The notes below the pieces were generated by a model. That model did no database searches and was not told where the DNA came from. It worked only from the letters and a program-made list of their open reading frames with translations. This document shows positions 6,339-16,710 of a stretch of DNA of 64,000 nt, one piece after another. Within the stretch, counting starts at the first letter, position 1. Each line of letters starts with the position of its first letter. A program made the translations under genes and the position numbers. The stretch is taken from contig NZ_JACVAK010000001.1 in NCBI RefSeq assembly GCF_014851805.1, positions 434,001-498,000 on the forward strand. The letters are read 5' to 3'. Source of the DNA: Pseudoxanthomonas sp. PXM02. GTDB taxonomy: Bacteria > Pseudomonadota > Gammaproteobacteria > Xanthomonadales > Xanthomonadaceae.

Positions 6339-6596
6339 TCAGCGTGTGTTCCATTCGTAGACGGTGAGATCGGACGTGCCGGTCAGCGCCAGGGGATCGC
6401 GTTCCGCGATCGCCCGCGCCTCTTCCAGCGACGCGACATTGACCAGCACGTAGGCCCCGCCGCTCTTGTCGCTGAAGCCGCCGGTCATTTCCAACTGGCC
6501 AGCAGCGCGCAGTTCATCCAGGAACGAAAGATGCGGCGCGATGACGGCGTCATCGAACGACGGACGACGCATCGCCATGACGAGGTAGCGGATCAC
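6339..6596 (-). CDS. YCII-related small protein
   Basis: 85 residues with the ferredoxin-like YCII fold signature: [12 protein letters not shown] at the start, [15 protein letters not shown] in the helix, [25 protein letters not shown] near the end, and a conserved His and Asp. YciI-type proteins are small dimers with proposed hydrolase or dehalogenase-like activity; the physiological role is unknown. The start overlaps the argH stop by four bases, so it is probably translated with argH. A role in arginine or proline metabolism is suggested only by position. Confidence 0.8.
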
Positions 6597-7885
6597 AGGG
6601 CGTCCCAGCGGGCGAGCAGTTCGTCCAGGCGCAGATCGGCGGCCGCGCCAGGCGAGACGCGCGCGGCTAGGCTGCCTTCCGGCGTACGTCCCTGCCCTGC
6701 GCTGTCGGCCGATGCGGCGGCGGCCTTGTAGGCTTCGCGGAACGGCACGCCCGCGACCGCGGCTTCGACCGCAACGTCGGTGGCGTACATGCCGGAATCG
6801 ATCGCGGCGCGCAGTTTGTCTTCACGCCAGCCCAGGTTGGCCAGCAGCGCCGGCAGCAGTTCCAGCGCCGGCAGGCCGCGGCCGAAGCCGTGGAAGATCG
6901 CGCCCTTGCTGGCCTGCAGGTCGCGGTGGTACCCCGACGGCAGCGACAGCAGTTGTTCGATCTCCATGCGTGCGGCGGCGACGCTGGCGTGCGTGGCGCG
7001 CATCAGCTCGATGACGTCGGGATTGCGCTTGTTCGGCATGATCGAGCTGCCGGTGGTGTACTGCGCCGGCAGCGCAACGAAGCCGAATTCGGCGCTGGTG
7101 AACAGCGACAGGTCCCAGGCGATGCGGCGCAGATCCAGCGTGGCGGCGCCGAGCGCTTCCAGCGCGGCCAGCTCGAACTTGCCGCGCGAGAGCTGCGCGT
7201 AGATCGGACTGACCTGCATGCGCGCGAAGCCGAGCGCCGTCGTGGTGTGCTCGCGGTCCAGCTTGAGGTTGACGCCGTAACCGGCGGCGGTGCCGAGCGG
7301 ATTGGCATCGACCAGCTTCAGCGTGTCGCGCGCGCGGATCGTGTTGTCGATAAAAGCCTCGGCCCAGCCCGCCCACCACATGCCGGCCGACGAAACGACG
7401 GCGCGCTGGATGTGGGTATAGCCGGGAATCGGCAGGTCGCGTTCGGCTTGCGCGCGGTCCAGCGCGACTTTGGCGATCTCGCGCGACAGCACGGCCACGC
7501 GCGCCAGCTTCTCCTTCAGCCACAGGCGCGTGGCGACCAGGATCTGGTCGTTGCGGCTGCGGCCGGTATGGATCTTGCGGCCGGCATCGCCCAAGCGTTC
7601 GGTCAGGCGCGCTTCGATGGCGGAGTGGCCGTCCTCGAAACGCTCGTCGAGCACGAAGTCGCCGCGACGGAAGTCATCGGCGAGGACCGCCAGTTCGCGC
7701 TTCAGCCCGGCCAGTTCGTCGCCCGACAGGATGCCGGTGCGCTGCAGGCCTTCGGCATGCGCCGCGCTGGCCTGGATATCGTGCAGGAAGAACTCGCGGT
7801 CCAGCACCACATCGTCGCCAGCCAGGAAACGCTGGATCTCCGCGTCCACCGCCACGCCGGGCTTCTGCCACAACAGGTCGCTCAT
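6593..7885 (-). CDS. argH: Argininosuccinate lyase
   Basis: Splits argininosuccinate into arginine and fumarate. 430 residues from the ATG at 7885 ([10 protein letters not shown]); the frame extends upstream to 8377, but that part overlaps argC. Fumarase-superfamily motifs: [11 protein letters not shown] at about 104-114, GYTHIQRA at 155-162, and the signature [12 protein letters not shown] at 279-290 with the catalytic serine. It overlaps argC by ATGA, so coupling is likely. The length is slightly below the roughly 460 residues of E. coli ArgH, with a short C-terminal domain. Confidence 0.97.
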
Positions 7886-8844
7886 GCCGTCGTCTCCTGC
7901 GGAATGCTCTCCAGCTCGTCGAAGCCGAAAGCAAGATTGAGGTTCTGCATCGCCTGCGTCGCCGCGCCTTTGAGCAGATTGTCCAGCGTGGCGACCACGA
8001 CCAGCCGCTTGCCGCCCGGCGCCAGGGTGAAACCGCCGATCTCGACGCCGTGCCTGCCGGCGATCCGGCTGACCCACGGCGCTTCGTCGAGGATGCGGAT
8101 CAGCGGCTCGGACGCGTAGCGCTCGCGGTACAGCGTGCGGACGTCGTCGATCTTGATCGCCTGCTGAAGCCAGATATTGACCGTCATGGTGATGCCGCGG
8201 AAATGCGGTGCCACGTGCGGCATGAATTCCACCGGCACACCGAGCTGCCGGCTGACCTCGCGCTCGTGCATGTGGTCGGTCAGTGCGTACGGCATCAGGT
8301 TGTCGCGCAGCAGCTCGGTGTTGTTCTTGTCCGACGGCGAGGTGCCCGCCCCGGAGTAGCCCGACACGCCGAAGCACTGCGGTGGCCCCGCCAGTCGATC
8401 GAGCAACGGCGCAATGGCCAACTGCATAGCCGTGGCGTAGCAGCCGGGATTGCTGATGCGCTTCTGTCCTGCGTACTTCCCGCGGGTCAGTTCGGGCAGG
8501 CCGTAGTACCAGTGTTCGTCGAAGCGGAAGTCGGCCGACAGGTCGACGACGACCGTGTCCGGCGCCTGCGCATCGATGGCCGCGACCAGTTCGGCAGCCT
8601 TGCCGTTCGGCAGCGCCAGAATGACGGCATCGGCGCCCTTGCCACCGACCTGCTCGTGGCTCAAGGTCTCGTAGCGCAGCTCGCCCTCGAATCCGGGGAT
8701 GTGGTCACTGACCTTCTGCCCGACGAGCTCGCGCGAGGACACGAAGGCCAGTTCCAGCTGCGGGTGGCGGGCGATCAGGCGGATCAGTTCCGCGCCGGTG
8801 TGGCCGCGGGCACCGACGATGCCGACGGTCTTCTTGCTGCTCAT
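7882..8844 (-). CDS. argC: N-acetyl-gamma-glutamyl-phosphate reductase
   Basis: NADPH-dependent reduction of N-acetylglutamyl phosphate to the semialdehyde. 320 residues from the ATG at 8844 ([17 protein letters not shown]); the open frame further upstream belongs to the overlapping GNAT gene. The Rossmann glycine motif is at 8-16; the catalytic cysteine is Cys135 in [25 protein letters not shown] and HVAPHFRGI are typical of the family. It overlaps both neighbours by ATGA (GNAT upstream, argH downstream), tight coupling within the operon. Confidence 0.97.
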
Positions 8845-9464
8845 GGGGATTCCTGTGCGTGCTGCGCCAGCCGGGCCTGCAGGTTGCGTTTCACCGCGGG
8901 CCACTCACTGTCGATGATGGAAAAGACGACGGTATCGCGCGGCGACCCGTCGGCGTGGCGCTTGTGGTTGCGCAGCACGCCGTCCTGCTTGGCGCCCAGA
9001 CGGGCGATGGCCGCGCGCGAGCGATGGTTGAACCAGCTGGTCTCGAACACCACGCTGATGCAGCCCAGGGTTTCGAAAGCATGCGTCAGCAGCAAGAGCT
9101 TCGTCTCGGTGTTGACGCCGGTGCGCTGGACGTCCGGCGCATACCAGGTGTAGCCGATGCTGAGCTTGGGCACGTCCGCTTCCAGCCCGTAAAAGCGCGT
9201 ACTGCCGACCACGCGACCGGCCGCATCCCGCACCACGAACGGCAGCACGCGGCCGTCGGCCTGTGCGGCCAGCACGGCATCCACGTAGCCCTCCGTGTCT
9301 TCCGCCTTCGGCACCTGGGTGAACCACAGCGCGGCTAGCGTATCGCCCGCCAACGCGTCGCGCAGGCTGTCGACATGGTCGCGCGACATAGGCTCCAAGC
9401 GCGCATGCCGGCCTGCCAGGACCGGGACCTGCTGCCACGCGACGGGAAGTGAGGCCGAAGTCAT
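8841..9464 (-). CDS. GNAT acetyltransferase, RimJ/RimL type, inside the arg operon
   Basis: 207-residue GCN5-related acetyltransferase. The core shows [18 protein letters not shown], then [29 protein letters not shown] (acetyl-CoA-binding strand and helix), then [28 protein letters not shown], a layout of RimJ/RimL-like N-acetyltransferases. It starts one base after the argB(A) stop and overlaps argC by four bases, so it is embedded in the operon. The fused ArgA/B already carries a synthase domain, so this enzyme is not needed for the standard route. Its substrate is unknown. Confidence 0.88.
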
Positions 9465-9465
9465 G

Positions 9466-10785
9466 TCAGTCCTTCAGCGTCGGCAAGCGCGTGCGGCAAT
9501 GCGCGACGCAGCGTTCGATGTCGCCAAAGTCCTCGATGCCGTACCAGAACACCTTCCACTTCTCCTGCTTGTAGCAGCCGTCCGATTCGGCGTAGTAGAA
9601 GATATTGACCTGGTTGTTGTGGCGCGAACGCCAGAACAGCTGCGGATTCTCCTCGCGCATCACGTGCCAGACCGCGCGACCCAGGCCTTCGCCCTGGGCA
9701 TCGTCCAGCACCGCGAACTTGTCGAGGTAAGCGAAGCCCTCTTCCTGCGTCAGGATCAACGCGGTGCGGTAGTTCTCGCTGATATAGACGCGGTAAGGCG
9801 TCGTCCGCTCGAAGTAGTCCGGCAGCAGCGTGCGGCCGAAGCTGGATTCGATCAGCGTTTTCAGGCGTGGCAGGTCCACGCCGTCCCAGCCGTTCTGGAA
9901 GCGCAGCACGCGTTCGCCGCGGCGTACGAGCGTGCCGGAACCGCGATGGGTGAACAGTTCCTTCGCAAGTTCTGCCGGCTTGGTGATAGACACCGACGAG
10001 GTCAGCGGCAGGCGATCCAGCAGGTCCTTGATCTGTTCGATCTTCACCCGCATGCCGCCGTTGATCCACGGCTGCGCCATCAGCTCGTCGTACTCGGTGG
10101 ACAGGTTGATCGAATCGATCACCCTGCCCTCGGCGTCCAGCAGGCCGCCGGTGCCGGTGAGGAAGATGATCTTGTACGGCTGCAGCACCTGCACCAGTTC
10201 GTTGGCGGCGAAGTCGGCATTGATGTTGAGGATCTGCCCGCCGACGGTCTCGCCCATGCTGGCGATTACCGGGATCGAACCCGCCTTCAGGCTGGCCTCG
10301 ATCGGCGCCTGATTGATGCGGGTGACGTCGCCGACCAGACCGTAAGTCGCCTGGTCCTTGTACTCGGCTTCGAACACGCCCGACACGATGGACGTCGCGC
10401 GTGCGCCGACCTGCTGCAGCGCTTCCACCAGCGCCAGGTTCTGCTGCAGGAACACCTTGCGCACGATGGCCAGGACTTCCGGCGTGGTCACGCGCAGGCC
10501 GTTGACGGTCTGCTTGGTGATGCCGGCGGCCGTCATCTCTTCGTCCAGCTGCGGGCCGGCGCCGTGCACGACGATCGGCGTCAGGCCGACTTCCTGCAGG
10601 AACGTCAGCGACGACGTCAGCGCTTCCAGATCGTCGCGCAGGACTGCGCCGCCGACCTTCACCACCGCGAAGCGCTTTGCATCCAGCTGCGAGAAGCGCT
10701 TGACGTACTGCGAGATCTCCTTCGCGCTGGCCATGCTGGACAGCAAGCGGATGATGGTCTGGCGGGTTTGCTTGTTCGATTCCAT
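9466..10785 (-). CDS. argB: Bifunctional N-acetylglutamate kinase / N-acetylglutamate synthase
   Basis: First two arginine steps in one protein, as known for xanthomonads. 439 residues from the ATG at 10785 ([11 protein letters not shown]). The amino-acid-kinase domain (about 1-285) has [39 protein letters not shown] and [16 protein letters not shown]. The C-terminal GNAT domain (about 295-439) has the vertebrate-like NAGS signature: [33 protein letters not shown] and [18 protein letters not shown]. This domain order is the NAGS/K type. The start is preceded by an 80-base gap containing a GC-rich palindrome. Arginine feedback inhibition is expected for this family but cannot be read from the sequence. 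Confidence 0.96.
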
Positions 10786-10798
10786 GTCTTCTTGCTTT

Positions 10799-10860
10799 CG
10801 TAAGGCGGGCCTCGGCCCACCGTCATCGATGTTGTGCATGACGAGCCAAGGCCCGCCATG
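10799..10860. repeat. GGCGGGCC/GGCCCGCC palindromic repeat upstream of argB(A)
   Basis: The gap between argE' and argB(A) holds GGCGGGCCTCGGCCCACC (10804-10821) and, inverted, AGCCAAGGCCCGCC (10845-10857), which can fold into a long hairpin in the message. The same family occurs before argG at 13338-13400. Confidence 0.7.
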
Positions 10861-10865
10861 CATAG

Positions 10866-11948
10866 TTATTCGAGAATTCGGACCACGCTGTCGGCGTAGC
10901 GCTGCAACTGCTCCAGTGATACCCATTCGTCGGCCGTATGCGCCTGGGCGATGTCGCCCGGACCGTAGACGAACGCGGTGAGACCGGCGGCCGAGAACAG
11001 CGAGGCCTCGGTCCAGAAGTCCACGGCATTGCCGATCGGCAGGCCGAGTTCGTCCGCGAGATCGCGCGCCGCCAGACGGCGCTCTTCCGCACGGGCAACA
11101 TCCCCGGACGGCAGCGACGGACCGCGGAAGGTCTCCTCGTACTCGGCCAGCGCATCGGCATTGGCGAAACTACGGAACGTGGCGTGCAACTGATCCATGT
11201 CCTGCGACGGCAGCGGGCGGAAGCCGAAGCGGACTTCCGCACTCGGCGCGATCATGTTGGCCTTGATGCCGCCTTCGACCCGGCCGATGTTGAAACGCAG
11301 CCCGGTCAGCCCGCCGAAGCGCAGATGATGCTGGTCCTGCACGAAGTCCAGCGCCGTCGTACCCCAGCGCATCGCGTTGTGCAGCGCGCTGAGCGACAGC
11401 GCGTTCTCGGCCGACGCATGACCCGCCTGACCAGTGAAGGCCATACGCACGGCACTGATGCCGCGATGCGCGAGCACCGCTTCGCAGCGGGTCGGCTCAG
11501 CGATGATCGCTTCGCCGAAGCCGTGGTCACGCGCCAGGAACGCCGCGATGCAGCGTGCATCGTTGGCTTCCTCGTCCGTGGTGAACAGGAAGGCCGCATC
11601 GCCCTTGGTCACCTGCGCGGCGGCCACCAGCGCCGCCGCCGCACCCTTGATGTCGCAGGCGCCGAGGCCGATGGCGCGATCGCCGTCGATCCGCAGCACA
11701 TGCGGACTGGCGGTCCACGCCGGCGACGACGGCACCGTGTCCAGGTGCACGTTGAACACCCGCTTCGGCTGACCGCGCACGGCGAAGAACGACACCGCGC
11801 CCGCGCCGTGATCGATCACTTCGATAGCGAAGTCCGGAAGCTGCGTGCGCAGATAGTCGAATATCCCGTCCGTGCCGATGTCGCGCGGCGGATTGCGGGT
11901 ATCGAACGACACCAGCTTTTCAAGGTGTTGGAGAACGGATTGCAGCAT
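10866..11948 (-). CDS. argE: N-acetylornithine/N-acetylcitrulline deacetylase (M20 family)
   Basis: Zinc-dependent M20 deacetylase. In xanthomonads it removes the acetyl group from acetylcitrulline after carbamoylation by ArgF'. 360 residues from the ATG at 11948 ([21 protein letters not shown]). Metal ligands are visible in [32 protein letters not shown] (catalytic Glu pair) and IIAEPTRCE; the lid domain shows GQAGHASA and the C-terminal His is in AQAHTADEW. The upstream in-frame extension to 12011 is within a repeat element and is not convincing. It lies between argG and argB(A), so the whole acetylated branch is in one transcript. Confidence 0.94.
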
Positions 11949-11983
11949 TGCGTGTCTTGTCCGTGATCGATCAACGTTCCGTT

Positions 11984-12098
11984 CGTCATCCCGGCGAACG
12001 CCGGGATCCATCTCGCTTCTGCCTTTTAAGTTTCCGGCAGATCAACCTGGATTCCAGCTTTACCAGCCATACGGCTGTTGAGATCCGCTGGAATGACG
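11984..12098. repeat. CGTCATCCCGGCG-type intergenic repeat
   Basis: Between argG and argE'. A perfect inner hairpin ATCCCGGCG-AA-CGCCGGGAT is followed by CTGGATTCCAGC and closes with CTGGAATGACGGG, so the outer CGTCAT/ATGACG ends are inverted. Repeats of this type are scattered in many proteobacteria. A related copy lies at 28845-28950. Confidence 0.75.
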
Positions 12099-12115: not shown

Positions 12116-13321
12116 TCAGCGATTGATCTCGGCCCACAGGGTCGAGCTCATGCCGAACAGCTTGATGAAGCCTTCCGCTTCTTCCACACCCCAGTCGGCC
12201 GACTGCGCGTACGTCGCGCCCTTGGCGTTGAGGATGTGCGGCGACTTCACGGCCACCGCATCGACGCGGCCACCGCGGGTCTCCAGCACCACTTCGCCGT
12301 TGACGATGGACTGCGACGACTGCAGGAATGCTTCCAGGTCGGCCTTCAGCGGGTCGTGGTAGAAACCTTCGTACACCAGTTCCACCCACTTGCGCGCGAC
12401 CTCGGGCTTGAAGCGGTTCTGCTGCTTGGTCAGCACGGTCTCCTCCAGCGCGCGGTGCGCGGCCAGCAGCGACACCAGGCCGGGCGCTTCGAACACGATG
12501 CGGCCCTTCAGGCCGATCACGGTGTCGCCGGTGTACACGCCACGGCCCACGCCATACGGTGCGAACAGGGCATTCAATTTCGCCAGCAGCGCGGCGCCGG
12601 CAACCGGCTGGCCGTCCAGGCTGACGGCTTCGCCGTGCTTGAAGCCGATCGTCACGCGCAGCGGTTCCACCGGCCACTCGGCACGCGGTGCGCACCAGCC
12701 ACGCGCGCCTTCGCCCGGCGCTTCCCACTTGTCGATCTCGCCGCCGGACATCGTCAGGCCCAGCAGGTTCTCATTGATCGTGTAGCTCTTCTGCTTGGCG
12801 CGCACGCCGAAGCCGCGCTCTTCCAGGTACGCCTGCTCGTAGGCGCGGGTCTGGGTATGCTCCTTCTGGATCTCGCGGATCGGCGCCACGATGCGGTAGT
12901 CACCACTGGCTTTGACCGCCAGGTCGAAGCGCACCTGGTCGTTGCCCATGCCGGTGCAGCCGTGCGCGATGGCATTGGTGCCCAGCTCGGCGGCGCGCTT
13001 CAACGCGGCGTCGACGATCAGGTAACGGTCGGACACCAGCAGCGGGTACTGGCCCTGGTAGCCCTCGCCCGCCCACACGAACGGTTTGACGAAGCCGTCC
13101 CAGATCGCGGGACCGCCATCGACGGTGACATGGCTGGCCACGCCCAGTTCGGCGGCGCGCTGCTCGATGAAGGCGCGCTCTTCGGCATCCACACCGCCGG
13201 TGTCGGCGAACACGGTATGCACGTTCCAGCCGCGCTCCTTCAGATAGGGCACGCAGAAGCTGGTGTCGAGGCCGCCGGAAAAGGCGAGGACGATGTCTTT
13301 GGAGTCGTGAGGCGTGGTCAT
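12116..13321 (-). CDS. argG: Argininosuccinate synthase
   Basis: ATP-dependent condensation of citrulline and aspartate. 401 residues from the ATG at 13321 ([17 protein letters not shown]); upstream in-frame sequence is intergenic repeat. The PP-loop ATPase motif AFSGGLDTS is at about 13-21; [12 protein letters not shown] and the citrulline/aspartate-binding segments are typical. It is the second gene of the arg operon, about 80 bases after argF', with two palindromic repeats in the gap. Confidence 0.96.
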
Positions 13322-13333
13322 CTTGGAACTCTC

Positions 13334-13404
13334 GTAGGGTGGGCCTTGGCCCACCGGATGGGGGTGTGATGCAGGTAGGAGCAGCGGGCCTGGGCCCGCC
13401 TTAC
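13334..13404. repeat. Pair of GC-rich palindromes between argF' and argG
   Basis: Two adjacent palindromes: GGTGGGCCTTGGCCCACC at 13338-13355, preceded by GTAG, and GCGGGCCTGGGCCCGC at 13385-13400, preceded by GTAGGAGCA. Both can form tight hairpins in the arg transcript. They belong to the same family as the repeat at 10799-10860. Confidence 0.75.
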
Positions 13405-14402
13405 TTGATGAGGGCCGCCATGATGGCCTTCTGCACATGCAGGCGGTTTTCGGCTTCGTCGATGGCGATGCACTGCGGCGAATCCATCACGCCGTCGGTG
13501 GCCTTGACGTTGCGACGCAGCGGCAGGCAATGGCTGAAGACGCCGTTGTTGGTCAGCGCCATCTTCCGCTCGTCGACGATGAAGTGCTTGTACTGGTCGC
13601 GGATCGGCTTCTCGGGCTCCCAGTTGCCGAAGAACGGCAGCGCGCCCCAGCTCTTGGCGTACACGACATCGGCACCAGCGTAGGCGCTGTCGATATCGTG
13701 GCTGACCTGCAGCGAACCGCCGCTCTCGGCGACGTTCTGCTCGGCCCAGCCCATGTAGCGCTCATCCAGCACATAGTCCGGCGTCGGGCACAGCAGGGTC
13801 ACGTCCATGCCCATGCGCGTGGCAATGGTCAGCGCCGAGTTGGCTACGGCGGTGTTCAGCGGCTTGGGATGGTAGGTCCAGGTGAGCACGTACTTCTTGC
13901 CGCGCAGGTCCGACGTGCCGAAGTGCTCCTGCAACGCCAGGGCATGCGCCAGCTCCTGGCAGGGATGGGTGATCGTCTCCATGTTGATCACCGGCACCGG
14001 CGAGTACTTGGCGAACGACTTCAGCACGATGTCCTCGCGGTCGTAGGCCCAGTCGACGAACTTCGGGAACGCGCGCACGCCGATCAGGTCGACGTAGCGG
14101 CCCAACACCTTCGCCACCTCGGCGATGTGCTCTTCTGTGTCGCCATCCATCACCGTGCCCAGGTTGAACTCGATCGGCCACGCATCCTTGCCCGGCTGCA
14201 GCACCACCGCATGGCCACCCAACTGGAACGCGCCCAGCTCGAAGCTGGTGCGGGTGCGCATGGAGGGATTGAAGAACACCAGCGCGATGGACTTGCCCTT
14301 CAGCGCGTCGCCCAGCTTGTTCTGCTTGTAGAGGGCGGCCTGCGTCAGCAACGCATCGAGGTCGCTACGGCTCCAGTCCTGCGTGTTCAAGAAGTGCTTC
14401 AT
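13401..14402 (-). CDS. argF: N-acetylornithine carbamoyltransferase
   Basis: Transfers carbamoyl to N-acetylornithine to give N-acetylcitrulline, the variant pathway of Xanthomonas and Xylella. 333 residues from the ATG at 14402 ([15 protein letters not shown]), with AGGA ten bases upstream. The carbamoyl-phosphate loop is SMRTRTSF at about 48-55. The Glu that sets acetylornithine specificity (Glu92 in X. campestris) is in MDGDTEEH, here Glu90. The conserved Lys reported as carboxylated (Lys302 there) is in [16 protein letters not shown] and FSHCLPL are intact. First structural gene behind a probable attenuator. Confidence 0.97.
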
Positions 14403-14449
14403 TACGGCATCCTGGTTTCGGGAATGTGGCAAAACGGACTTCAGAAACG

Positions 14450-14474
14450 AAAAAACCCAGCCTCTGGCTGGGTT
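14450..14474 (-). terminator. Intrinsic terminator in the arg leader
   Basis: On the minus strand: AACCCAGCC (14474-14466), loop AGA, GGCTGGGTT (14462-14454), then a T-run to 14450. A nine-pair stem plus U-tract, 48 bases before the argF' ATG and 35 bases after the leader-peptide stop. Position and the competing segment at 14510-14504 point to an attenuator rather than a simple gene-end terminator. Confidence 0.85.
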
Positions 14475-14509
14475 TCCGGTGAACAGGCGACGACGTCCGG
14501 GGTACCCAG

Positions 14510-14602
14510 CTAGATGCAGGATTCCGGTCGACGCGCACGCGACGTCATGCTCGAGGCCTGGGAGGCCGCGCTGTCAGCATGGGCGTGTGCGTTCATCTTC
14601 AT
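14510..14602 (-). CDS. Arg leader peptide (30 codons)
   Basis: Small ORF starting with M-K-M-N-A-H-A-H-A and ending R-A-R-R-P-E-S-C-I. The Arg codons are CGT, CGT and the rare-type CGA at codons 22, 24 and 25. An in-frame ATG six codons further upstream (14620) is also possible. No convincing Shine-Dalgarno sequence precedes either start, the weakest point of the call. The ORF lies 74 bases after the stop of the upstream exported-protein gene and directly before a terminator hairpin that precedes argF', the layout of amino-acid leader peptides. Confidence 0.6.
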   Translation of the reverse strand: MKMNAHAHADSAASQASSMTSRARRPESCI

Positions 14603-14649
14603 GGGCGCGAATGCTCGCATGTGCTGCGGCGCAGCGCAAGGCCGGATTC

Positions 14650-14665
14650 GGTTGCGTGTGCAACC
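14650..14665. promoter_or_regulatory. 16-bp interrupted palindrome upstream of the arg leader
   Basis: GGTTGC-GTGT-GCAACC, perfect six-base arms. It lies about 48 bases upstream of the leader-peptide start and 11 bases after the preceding gene. It could be an operator or a 5' leader hairpin. It does not match the classical ArgR ARG box. Confidence 0.4.
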
Positions 14666-14675
14666 GTGCACAGAA

Positions 14676-15179
14676 TCAGGGACCGCTCGCCGTGGGTTGG
14701 GCAGGCGCGATGTAGGGCACCACCGAGATACGGATGCGCAGGCGGTTGCCGGGATCTTCGGCCAGACGCGAGCGGTACTTCACGCCCTTGTAGATGTAGT
14801 CCACGTCATAGGCGATCGGGCGCTGGAACTCGCGCTCGATCGGCACCGTGCGGCAGTTGACCTTCATCGTGGAGGGCGGTGCCAACGGCGCCGACGGCTC
14901 CGGCTCGTCGCCACCGAACCAGCCGCGCACCGAGTTGACCATCCGGTTCCAGCGACCCTCGTCCTTCGCCGGCGCGGGCACCTCGGCCTTCGGCGCGGGC
15001 ACTTCGTCGCAGCGCTGCTCGGTGCGGGTCGCCCGCAGGGTCTGGTACACCGGCTCGACGCTCAGCACCTGCGCATAGTCCAGACGGACGTTCTCCGTCG
15101 GGATCACCCGCTCCTGCGCCACGACAGAGGTGGCAAGCAGGCAGCAGGACAGGAGAAGGGCGGTGCGGAGGCGGAGCAT
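14676..15179 (-). CDS. Exported protein of unknown function (UmoD/YcfJ-like C-terminus)
   Basis: 167 residues from the ATG at 15179 (MLRLRTALLLSCC), a clear Sec signal peptide ending near ATSVVAQ. The mature part begins ERVIPTENVRLDYAQVLSVEPVYQ, has a Pro/Ala-rich middle with a Trp-Phe segment, and ends with YDVDYIYKGVKYRSRLAEDPGNRLRIRI. That last stretch resembles the C-terminus of glycine-zipper proteins such as YcfJ/UmoD, but no glycine zipper is present. Two cysteines (EQRCDE, KVNCRTV) may form a disulfide. Longer in-frame starts upstream lack support. It may supply the promoter for the arg leader downstream. Confidence 0.75.
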   Translation of the reverse strand: MLRLRTALLLSCCLLATSVVAQERVIPTENVRLDYAQVLSVEPVYQTLRATRTEQRCDEVPAPKAEVPAPAKDEGRWNRMVNSVRGWFGGDEPEPSAPLAPPSTMKVNCRTVPIEREFQRPIAYDVDYIYKGVKYRSRLAEDPGNRLRIRISVVPYIAPAQPTASGP

Positions 15180-15321
15180 GTGGCCTGTAGGTGGGATCCC
15201 GGTGTCACAGTTTAGGGACGGCGCCTTGAGTGGGGCTGAACATCGGCCTCCCGAGCGGTCGCCGGACCCTCGCATGCGGCTCAGGCGTTAGAATTCCACG
15301 GCTCTCCCCTGCCCTGTCCCC

Positions 15322-16710
15322 ATGACCCTGCGCCTGCACAACAACCTCACCCGCCGGGTCGAGGACTTCGAACCGCTCGGCCCGATCCCCACGATGTACG
15401 TCTGCGGGCCCACCGTCTACAACTACGTCCATATCGGCAATGCGCGTGGCCCCGTCGTGTTCGGCGTGCTGGCGGCCCTGCTGCGCCGCCGCTTCGGCCA
15501 ACTGCGCTACGCCCGCAACATCACCGACGTGGACGACAAGATCAACGCCGCGGCCAAGGACCTGGGCGTGGCGATCTCGGCCATCACTGACCGCTACGCC
15601 GCCGCCTACCGCGAGGACATGGCCGGCCTGGGCGTGACCGGTGAGTTCGCCCCGGACATCGAACCGGCCGCCACCGACCACATCGGCCACATCATCACGA
15701 TGATCGAGCAGCTGATCGCTGGCGGACACGCCTACGCCGCCGAAGGCCACGTACTGTTCTCGGTGGGCAGCTTCGCCGAGTACGGCAAGCTCTCGCGTCG
15801 CGATCCCGAGGAAATGCTGGCGGGCGCCCGCGTCGAGGTCGCCCCGTACAAGCGCGATCCGGGCGACTTCGTGCTGTGGAAACCTTCCACCCCGGATCTG
15901 CCGGGCTGGGACTCGCCCTGGGGCATCGGTCGCCCGGGCTGGCATATCGAATGCTCGGCGATGGCCGCCGCCCACCTGGGCGAGACCATCGACATCCATG
16001 CCGGCGGCGTGGACCTGCAGTTCCCGCACCACGAGAACGAAGTGGCGCAGAGCGAGTGCGCGCACAAGCATGCCGACGGCTCGCACAAGACGTTCGCCCG
16101 CTTCTGGGTGCACAACGGCATGCTCAACTTCGGCGGCGCCAAGATGAGCAAGTCGCTGGGGAACATCGAGAAGGTCCACGACCTGCTGCAGCAGCATCCG
16201 CCGGAAGGCCTGCGCTATGCGTTGCTCTCGGCCCACTACCGGCAGCCGCTGGACTGGTCCGAGGCGCTGGTGGAGCAATCTAAGAACACGCTGGACCGGT
16301 TGTACGGAACGCTGCGCGACCTGCGCGATATCGACGCCGTCGCTGTGACGCCGCAGTTCATCGAAGACATCCTGGACGACGACCTCAACACCCCGCAGGC
16401 GCTGGCCGAAGTGGCCCGTATCGCTGCCGAGGCACGCAAGGCGACGGACGAGGGGGAGAAGCAGCGACTGAAGAGCGAACTGCTCGGCGCGGGTCGGGTG
16501 CTAGGCCTGCTGCAGCAGGATCCGGCCGAATGGTTCGGTCGCGGTACCTCCTCCGACGACGATGCCCGCATCCAGGCGCTGATCGACGAACGCGTGGCAG
16601 CGAAGCAGTCCCGCGACTTCGCGCGCTCCGACGCCATCCGTGACCAGCTGGCCGCCGAAGGCATCCTGCTGGAAGACACGCCGCAGGGCGTGCGCTGGAA
16701 GCGGGCGTGA
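15322..16710 (+). CDS. cysS: Cysteinyl-tRNA synthetase
   Basis: Class I synthetase charging tRNA-Cys. 462 residues. The zinc ligand Cys28 lies in [16 protein letters not shown], which contains the HIGH-equivalent HIGN at 37-40. Other zinc ligands are in GWHIECSAM and [15 protein letters not shown] is near residue 275. The C-terminal helical domain ends [30 protein letters not shown], as in typical CysS. Monocistronic; a repeat element follows. Confidence 0.97.

Follow-up and report, generated by a model that had tools for sequence, protein, structure and literature searches.

The sequence upstream of argF' in Pseudoxanthomonas sp. PXM02 raises the question of whether the arginine genes that follow it are governed by an attenuator. 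Amino-acid attenuators are textbook regulation and are well known for the his, trp, leu, ilv and thr operons. An earlier reading of the same letters (the original prediction) had proposed classical attenuation at this place, with a 30-codon ORF carrying CGT-GCG-CGT-CGA near its end, a nine-pair hairpin plus U-run just before argF', and seven bases, GCTGGGT, at the leader stop codon that are complementary to the 5' arm of this hairpin. We looked at the locus in the window, that is, the whole stretch of 64,000 nucleotides that was analysed, and compared it with related loci. In the 200 nt before argF', the elements follow one another on the minus strand in the order TTGCGC-N17-GAGCAT, leader ORF, GCTGGGT and terminator, as listed here.

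14634..14639, minus strand: predicted −35 element TTGCGC of the leader promoter (TTGC-type hexamer with a 17-nt spacer in relatives; missed by the consensus scan)
14611..14616, minus strand: predicted −10 element GAGCAT of the leader promoter, with TGC before it, ending 8 nt before the leader ATG
14510..14602, minus strand: leader ORF of 30 codons plus TAG, probably leaderless; translation MKMNAHAHADSAASQASSMTSRARRPESCI then stop, with the C-terminal end ...TSRARRPESCI
14528..14539, minus strand: control codons CGT-GCG-CGT-CGA (R22, A23, R24 and R25 of the leader ORF)
14524..14527, minus strand: 5' arm CCGG of stem P1 (codons 26-27), which a ribosome on the Arg codons would cover and whose partner in the lowest-energy fold is 14500..14497
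14497..14500, minus strand: 3' arm CCGG of stem P1, after the stop (lowest-energy fold and pairing in relatives)
14504..14510, minus strand: antiterminator arm A, GCTGGGT, a 7-bp complement of T1 that covaries with it
14475..14466, minus strand: terminator 5' arm T1, AAACCCAGCC, common to the antiterminator (terminator scan, covariation)
14462..14453, minus strand: terminator 3' arm T2, GGCTGGGTTT (terminator scan), with an AGA loop between T1 and T2
14450..14455, minus strand: predicted U-run of the intrinsic terminator (sequence and terminator scan)

The ORF was recovered as predicted (14602..14510, Arg cluster at codons 22-25). Arm A overlaps the leader stop, the first G of GCTGGGT being the last base of TAG, and its complementarity to the ACCCAGC of T1 extends over 7/7 bases, a score reached by none of 60 shuffles of the region. 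The hairpin and its U-run also stood, with a corrected count of at least ten Watson-Crick pairs; the hairpin lies 47 nt upstream of the argF' ATG and is the only terminator-like site in 14350-15350 (one found, 0.4 expected in shuffles). The fold of the whole 171-nt leader is unremarkable on its own (z −1.5, 18 of 200 shuffles being at least as stable), and the case therefore rests on comparison. A T-box or riboswitch was also considered and dropped, no such match being present in 13000-16000 at E values up to 5; the Rfam matches in this interval are Xoo5 and, below threshold, rnk_pseudo and a CRISPR repeat.

The genes that follow the leader on the same strand are, in order, argF', argG, argE', the acetylglutamate kinase gene, argC, argH and proB; the arg genes were assigned as follows.

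13401..14402, minus strand: argF', N-acetylornithine carbamoyltransferase, first gene of the cluster (NCBIfam NF003384, 643 bits, cut-off 288)
12116..13369, minus strand: argG, argininosuccinate synthase, start tentative (NF003385, 795 bits; the match begins at residue 23)
10866..11996, minus strand: argE', acetylornithine deacetylase, start tentative (NF006439, 617 bits)
9466..10830, minus strand: argB-type acetylglutamate kinase with a C-terminal extension, start tentative (NF003386, 849 bits)
7882..8862, minus strand: argC (TIGR01850, 342 bits)
6593..7900, minus strand: argH (TIGR00838, 282.5 bits, cut-off 279.5)

Since these genes are co-oriented downstream of the leader, a single switch could set most of arginine synthesis; we infer that the argF'-to-argH cluster forms one transcript.

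The original prediction had proposed aligning the argF' upstream regions of many Xanthomonadaceae, with an eye to the Arg codons among other things, and had made its case depend on whether the ORF and the GCTGGGT/ACCCAGC pairing are kept in relatives. For the window's family (f1), the loci were fetched by ArgF' similarity and not by the leader, and the best 80 were kept (at least 91% ArgF' identity); they are mostly named Xanthomonas, Stenotrophomonas, Pseudoxanthomonas, Luteimonas and Lysobacter. In 81/81 loci (these 80 plus the window), argF' is preceded by a leader with its Arg codons, an antiterminator arm at the stop and a terminator, so that the ORF and the pairing are both conserved, the latter with covariation (see below). 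The sequence MTSRARR is found in 80 of these leaders and ITSRARR in one. In most f1 loci the ORF ends in ...AG-stop, making GCT GGG coding, and in the window's group the stop comes before it. The start of arm A relative to the stop is −7, −6 or +2 to +4 in the 82 f1 loci counted, meaning that a ribosome at the stop would cover arm A in f1. The distance from the last clustered Arg codon to arm A is 20-21 nt in 80/82 f1 loci and 55/59 loci of family f12, and 6-25 nt elsewhere. In this sample L144 is the window itself, and the unnamed f1 loci L143, L145, L146 and L177 may repeat named species. An 18-base pattern run over the order matched 78/79 f1 genomes and was dropped as a count, the reversed control having matched many too.

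Two side observations were made on the f1 loci. A record titled Bacillus subtilis SK7B5 (L056) carries a Stenotrophomonas-like argF' locus with the leader, and is probably mislabelled or contaminated. Many Xanthomonas and Stenotrophomonas loci (L018, L022 and L030, for example) have a stretch like AAAGTTTCAACCGCAA after the terminator and before argF'; a second promoter is conceivable there, and the stretch was not seen in the window's group.

We then looked at the other families. In f12, a 27-base leader motif occurs once each in 95 of 97 genomes (reversed control, 0/97), and the remaining two genomes, fetched by ArgF' (L178, L180), keep MTSRARR with different codons after it; argF' lies downstream of the leader in the f12 loci fetched. 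A 24-base form of the motif gave five matches among 369 genomes drawn from the class, four in f1 and one in f12. The ArgF' search showed that the design reaches families where the f1/f12 motif does not: of the 51 argF' loci of f2-f10 with readable upstream sequence, 46, in eight of these families, have a terminator preceded by a short ORF in which Arg codons are clustered. The Arg clusters of these divergent leaders include RRRR, RRRSRR and RRARRTRR; examples picked by eye are ELRRRRTCPKQGWVEAV (f4), NPRRRRVLQSTAG (f6), GRRARRTRRPLLAG (f7), VRRLRRIIHVPGC (f8), LLRRRSRRP (f9) and VVRRRPRPRIYAGR (f10), the weakest being MLRRSG of L215. No leader was found in the other five of the 51 loci (L186 in f5; L191, L213, L214 and L216 in f9), nor in the six f11 loci (L192, L193, L239-L242), where the enzyme is a different one (38-42% identical). 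Judging from these upstream sequences, the attenuator design appears to span most of the families seen of the order to which Xanthomonas and Stenotrophomonas belong.

The resulting set holds 191 loci, whose leaders and terminators were motif-anchored or chosen by hand. It omits L033 (terminator missed), L176 (no start chosen), L209 (leader by eye), the five loci without a leader and the six f11 loci; L201, L223, L231 and L238 had no usable upstream sequence, and L194-L196 were paralogues or gave no hit. L142 and L173 are one f12 locus counted twice, so that the 62 f12 loci are really 61. Upstream of L187 the leader occurs twice in tandem with N between the copies, possibly an assembly artefact or a tandem copy. 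In f12 (e.g. L128), the GTCG that follows the stop has two potential partners, CGAC at the Arg codons and CGAC just before the terminator; the latter is, by eye, frequent in f12 rows and would make a second possible alternative pair.

The two arms of the antiterminator change together, as GCTGGGT/ACCCAGC, GCCGGGT/ACCCGGC and GCCAGGTT/AACCTGGC. In 77/84 f1, 52/62 f12 and 24/45 f2-f10 loci, no more than 3 of 60 shuffles of the region equalled the A:T1 score; the pairing was weak in f2 (0/3 beyond shuffles), f3 (3/8) and f9 (3/10). At the third pair, most f1 loci have U-A and most f12 loci C-G, the terminator pair changing with it; both sides are changed in 35 of 86 sequences, where slid partners give 0-4 such cells. 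The changed cells and the covariation score of A:T1 exceed all 500 shuffles; the number of covarying A:T1 pairs, which is one, is not above them (490/500 reach one), and the covariation mostly reflects one ancestral change. Further cases are L164 (an f12 locus with the U-A form), L067 (f1, TCGGGTT/AACCCGG), the f8 forms and f10. Permuting T1 arms among the 137 loci whose arms have 7 bases lowered the mean number of Watson-Crick pairs from 6.94 to 6.42, with 6.55 as the highest of 500 permutations; kinship is left out of account in this control. Arm A is read in different frames at different loci (AG-stop, GWV, PGC), meaning that bases and not residues are kept. For the terminator, 100% of T1:T2 cells are paired, with changes on both sides at four pairs, and for P1 96% of cells are paired in 50 f1 sequences, with one pair changed on both sides in two sequences. 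A persistent-looking hairpin inside the ORF (columns 13-30 of A1) shifts its register between lineages and was not counted.

We looked at the predicted behaviour of the switch under different ribosome positions. The RNA that was folded lay downstream of the ribosome, beginning 13 nt beyond the A-site codon's first base and stopping where T1 ends, in 36 of the 84 f1 loci (random choice plus the window), 35 of the 62 f12 loci and 45 others. With the ribosome on the Arg cluster, the predicted A:T1 pairing was 0.99 in f1, 0.94 in f12 and 0.81 in the others, compared with 0.00, 0.00 and 0.02 when it stood at the stop. With arm A chosen beforehand for pairing best with T1, the information lies in the ribosome position at which the switch closes: this is 3-4 codons past the last clustered Arg in f1 and f12, and earlier in some other families. 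In some f2-f10 leaders the last clustered Arg lies only 6-12 nt from A, so that a ribosome there would cover A. Applied to E. coli, this script reproduced the curve for thr and part of it for his, and missed trp (wrong arm picked).

In the window, the energies of the A..T1 segment and of the terminator are nearly equal (−17.6 and −16.9 kcal/mol). With the whole terminator in the calculation, the antiterminator was favoured on R22 (0.91, terminator 0.09) and R24 (0.84, terminator 0.15), and the terminator on R25 (0.94), at the stop (1.00) and without a ribosome (0.99). The GC core of the terminator on its own gave the opposite result on R25 (antiterminator 0.98), and in these models R25 appears borderline. 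Without a ribosome and before T2, A:T1 reached 0.98 in the window, a mean of 0.83 in f12 and 0.32 in f1; A:T1 being already favoured there, a role of P1 in holding A is not supported in the window or in f12.

In the folding model, stalls at many upstream codons also free arm A (means mostly 0.4-0.8). The leader could then be a general translation sensor, answering any slowing of its ribosome, for instance through poor leaderless initiation, with its arginine specificity being incidental. We hold this to be very improbable, because Arg is the most enriched residue across divergent leaders and the rare codon CGA is over-used in them. The highest number of Arg in any 10 codons averaged 4.53, compared with 1.61 in dinucleotide shuffles (z 13.4), in the 40 of 51 f2-f10 loci covered by this test, the other 11 having no terminator by the automatic rule. 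Met (z 9.2) and Asn (z 6.7) came next, an enrichment that partly reflects ORFs being commoner in real loci than in shuffles. CGA makes up 29% of the leader Arg codons in f1, compared with 1% in f1 argF', and 29% in f4-f10, compared with 7% in argF' of the same families. It is the last clustered Arg in 84/84 f1 leaders and in 60/62 f12 leaders; in f12 the fetching pattern fixes CGA, and the unselected figure is 95/97 genomes.

The arginine codons are not the only part of the leader that is kept. In 157/157 leaders of f1, f2, f3 and f12 the residues T, S, R, A, R and R are identical, and M is present in 156. This alignment was anchored on MTSRARR, which was also encoded in the pattern used to fetch most of the f12 loci; unselected for it are 81 f1, 11 f2/f3 and 2 f12 loci, fetched by ArgF', and the 95/97 f12 count. 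All the ArgF'-fetched loci of f1, f2/f3 and f12 have MTSRARR, apart from one M to I change. Substitutions in the leader fall mostly at the wobble positions around it, as in coding sequence, most of these positions being variable (T 1.49 bits, A 1.26 bits). In the window, MTSRARR lies at 14548..14528. To judge from these sequences, its retention is more than codon-based attenuation, which needs the Arg codons alone, would require: it may reflect a function of the peptide within the ribosome, or else an overlapping constraint that escaped this analysis.

The peptide could accordingly be read directly, MTSRARR acting as a nascent-chain arrest sequence that responds to arginine, or to an intermediate of the pathway, and the RNA switch serving as its output. 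The identity of T, S, R, A, R and R in all 157 leaders of this motif-anchored set despite variable wobble positions speaks for such an arrest, as does the fact that codon counting alone needs no M, T, S or A. We nevertheless find it unlikely: six other families (f4 and f6-f10) keep Arg clusters without MTSRARR, the geometry works in folding with bare codon stalling, and an arrest on Arg codons caused by high arginine would switch a biosynthetic operon on when its product is plentiful.

The leader has a homologue among published RNAs. Rfam RF02242, Xoo5, matches the window with 43.3 bits (E 5.9e-7), below the gathering threshold of 50 bits, the match beginning 4 nt inside the leader ORF. The threshold was reached in 9 of 15 other f1 loci tested (3/3 and 6/12) and in 0 of 18 loci tested from other families. 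We conclude from this sequence similarity that the leader RNA is homologous to the Rfam 'sRNA' Xoo5, though the window itself falls below the Rfam rule. According to the accessible part of the original report, Xoo5 of X. oryzae was detected by Northern blot and 5' RACE as a 124-nt RNA (Liang 2011, PMC3039613), with Northern bands of ~130 and ~100 nt and a cloned 3' end at 124. There it sits before PXO_00353, named N-acetylornithine carbamoyltransferase in Table 4, and its level is unchanged without Hfq. Seven sRNA deletions, by implication including that of Xoo5, reportedly left growth and flanking-gene expression unchanged, and a general remark states that some 5'-UTR clones may be riboswitches or attenuators; the terms argF, leader and arginine have no match in the text of PMC3039613 as accessible. 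For Xoo5 of X. oryzae and L018:2233-2356, the cloned 3' end and the bands are shorter than the ~158 nt predicted for termination at the hairpin. Another 'sRNA' of the same report, Xoo1, lies between a regulator gene and thiC and was previously annotated as a riboswitch (PMC3039613, accessible part); it too may be a cis leader.

The Xoo5 model has 124 positions, and its first base falls 2 nt before the leader ATG in all nine f1 loci above threshold. From the equal length, 124, we infer that the model's 5' end coincides with the RACE end. A 5' end so close to the ATG makes a leaderless start probable, and no Shine-Dalgarno sequence is then expected; the switch in the window's family probably starts without a ribosome-binding site. 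The original prediction had listed the missing Shine-Dalgarno sequence as a weak point; the probable leaderless start would explain its absence. AGGAGG-like matches (4-5 of 6) occur near the ATG in 53/84 f1 loci; the idea that the '−10' is a Shine-Dalgarno sequence in some f1 species was rejected, many of these matches being, as we read them, the −10 hexamer itself, which precedes the Xoo5 5' end. In 80/84 f1 loci the distance from the end of the best −10 to the ATG is 6-10 nt; it is 6-7 nt in 20/45 f2-f10 loci and 24-27 nt in 42/62 f12 loci, so that f12 leaders are probably not leaderless.

The second weak point of the original prediction was the want of a clear promoter, and a promoter downstream of the hairpin had been named as something that would make the leader irrelevant. 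A consensus scan of 14350-15350 indeed found no promoter anywhere, neither downstream of the hairpin nor at the proposed leader promoter, while relatives show a predicted promoter of the TTGC-N17 type directly before the leader ATG. Since the scan was blind even to the proposed leader promoter, its silence on a downstream one is weak.

A promoter after the hairpin would suit a quite different reading, in which Xoo5 is a trans-acting sRNA, the hairpin does no more than end Xoo5 itself or the transcript of the upstream gene, and argF' is transcribed from elsewhere. Xoo5 was, after all, published and filed in Rfam as an sRNA and is short on Northern blots (PMC3039613, accessible part). This reading has to accommodate a leader that is kept before argF' while its sequence diverges to Arg runs, that shows coding-type substitution and whose arm A is tied to T1 by covariation, as well as the level of Xoo5 being unchanged without Hfq (same source), and we give it very little credence.

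Control by ArgR would call for an ArgR in the genome. The C-terminal domain (PF02863), used as the only model in this search and matched in 8/14 positive controls, was found in 0/25 f1 and 0/22 f12 genomes (G000 included), that is, in none of the 47. Among ten genomes of other families it was found in one, G011, the sole f11 genome searched, on the same contig as its argF. Five argF' loci of f5 and f9 are without a leader, and G005 and G009 gave no ArgR hit either. The leader may point to the way in which arginine genes are regulated in genomes that gave no ArgR hit.

Altogether, a leader ORF precedes a biosynthetic gene, codons for the end product lie near its end, an intrinsic terminator (seen in sequence and pairing) stands before the first gene, an antiterminator shares the 5' terminator arm, though weakly in f2, f3 and f9, and by computation a ribosome at the stop masks arm A and one on the control codons does not, with R25 borderline. 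The classical attenuation of the original prediction is supported by conservation, covariation, ribosome geometry and predicted energies, and we think it very probable that a ribosome-mediated, arginine-specific transcription attenuator controls argF'-argG-argE'-argB-argC-argH. In the proposed mechanism, transcription would begin some 2 nt ahead of the leader ATG, and the leaderless RNA would take up a ribosome. When charged Arg-tRNA is ample, the ribosome would reach the stop and cover arm A, T1:T2 would form and transcription would end before argF'. When charged Arg-tRNA is short, it would stall on CGT-GCG-CGT-CGA, the free arm A would pair with T1 and the arg genes would be made. P1, formed by Arg/Pro codons and bases after the stop, may hold A back in the absence of a ribosome. 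Translation, stalling, termination, the response to arginine and the role of P1 are all presumed here from sequence and folding.

On the attenuator reading, an Rfam 'sRNA' that was an orphan becomes a leader open to testing. The leaders, which range naturally from Arg runs to a conserved peptide, also allow one to ask when codon counting becomes peptide sensing. As a speculation that we rate as distinctly unlikely, an ancestral Arg-run attenuator may have turned, in the four MTSRARR families, into a sequence-specific nascent-chain sensor, acting in f1 on leaderless RNA, with no ArgR detected, and convergent with the fungal arginine attenuator peptide.

The original prediction knew of no attenuator described for arginine, and in the open-access literature, most subscription papers lying outside this scope, we likewise found none for bacterial arginine biosynthesis. 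The arginine attenuator peptide of Neurospora is, as proposed here, a leader peptide regulating arginine synthesis; unlike the window's leader, it belongs to a eukaryote and acts by nascent-peptide arrest of translation. Close in design is the thr attenuator of E. coli, where the leader thrL ends in GAG-stop, the antiterminator arm overlaps the stop and pairs with the 5' terminator arm, and the computed stall curve is that of the window; its codons are Thr and Ile and its genes are different, and the likeness meant is one of design. Xoo5 (RF02242) is a homologous RNA, described as an sRNA in the accessible part of PMC3039613. The mycobacterial polycysteine leaderless short ORFs (Canestrari 2020, going by its title) likewise have control codons and form cysteine-responsive attenuators, but they respond to cysteine and are termed translation attenuation in what is accessible of PMC13236596. 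In Salmonella, orf34 of speF senses arginine by ribosome pausing at two consecutive Arg codons that alters RNA structure, but it precedes a polyamine gene and its outputs are Rho and RNase G, with no intrinsic-terminator attenuator of arginine synthesis in the accessible part of PMC6386406. In S. aureus, the leader peptide rbfL senses arginine limitation through rare Arg codons and, unlike the leader studied here, acts on a biofilm regulator by blocking its ribosome site, no terminator switch being described in the accessible part of PMC13009471. By its predicted working the window's leader resembles the classical attenuators and, as far as these partial sources go, the nearest bacterial cases, speF and rbfL, have Arg codons but other outputs and other genes.
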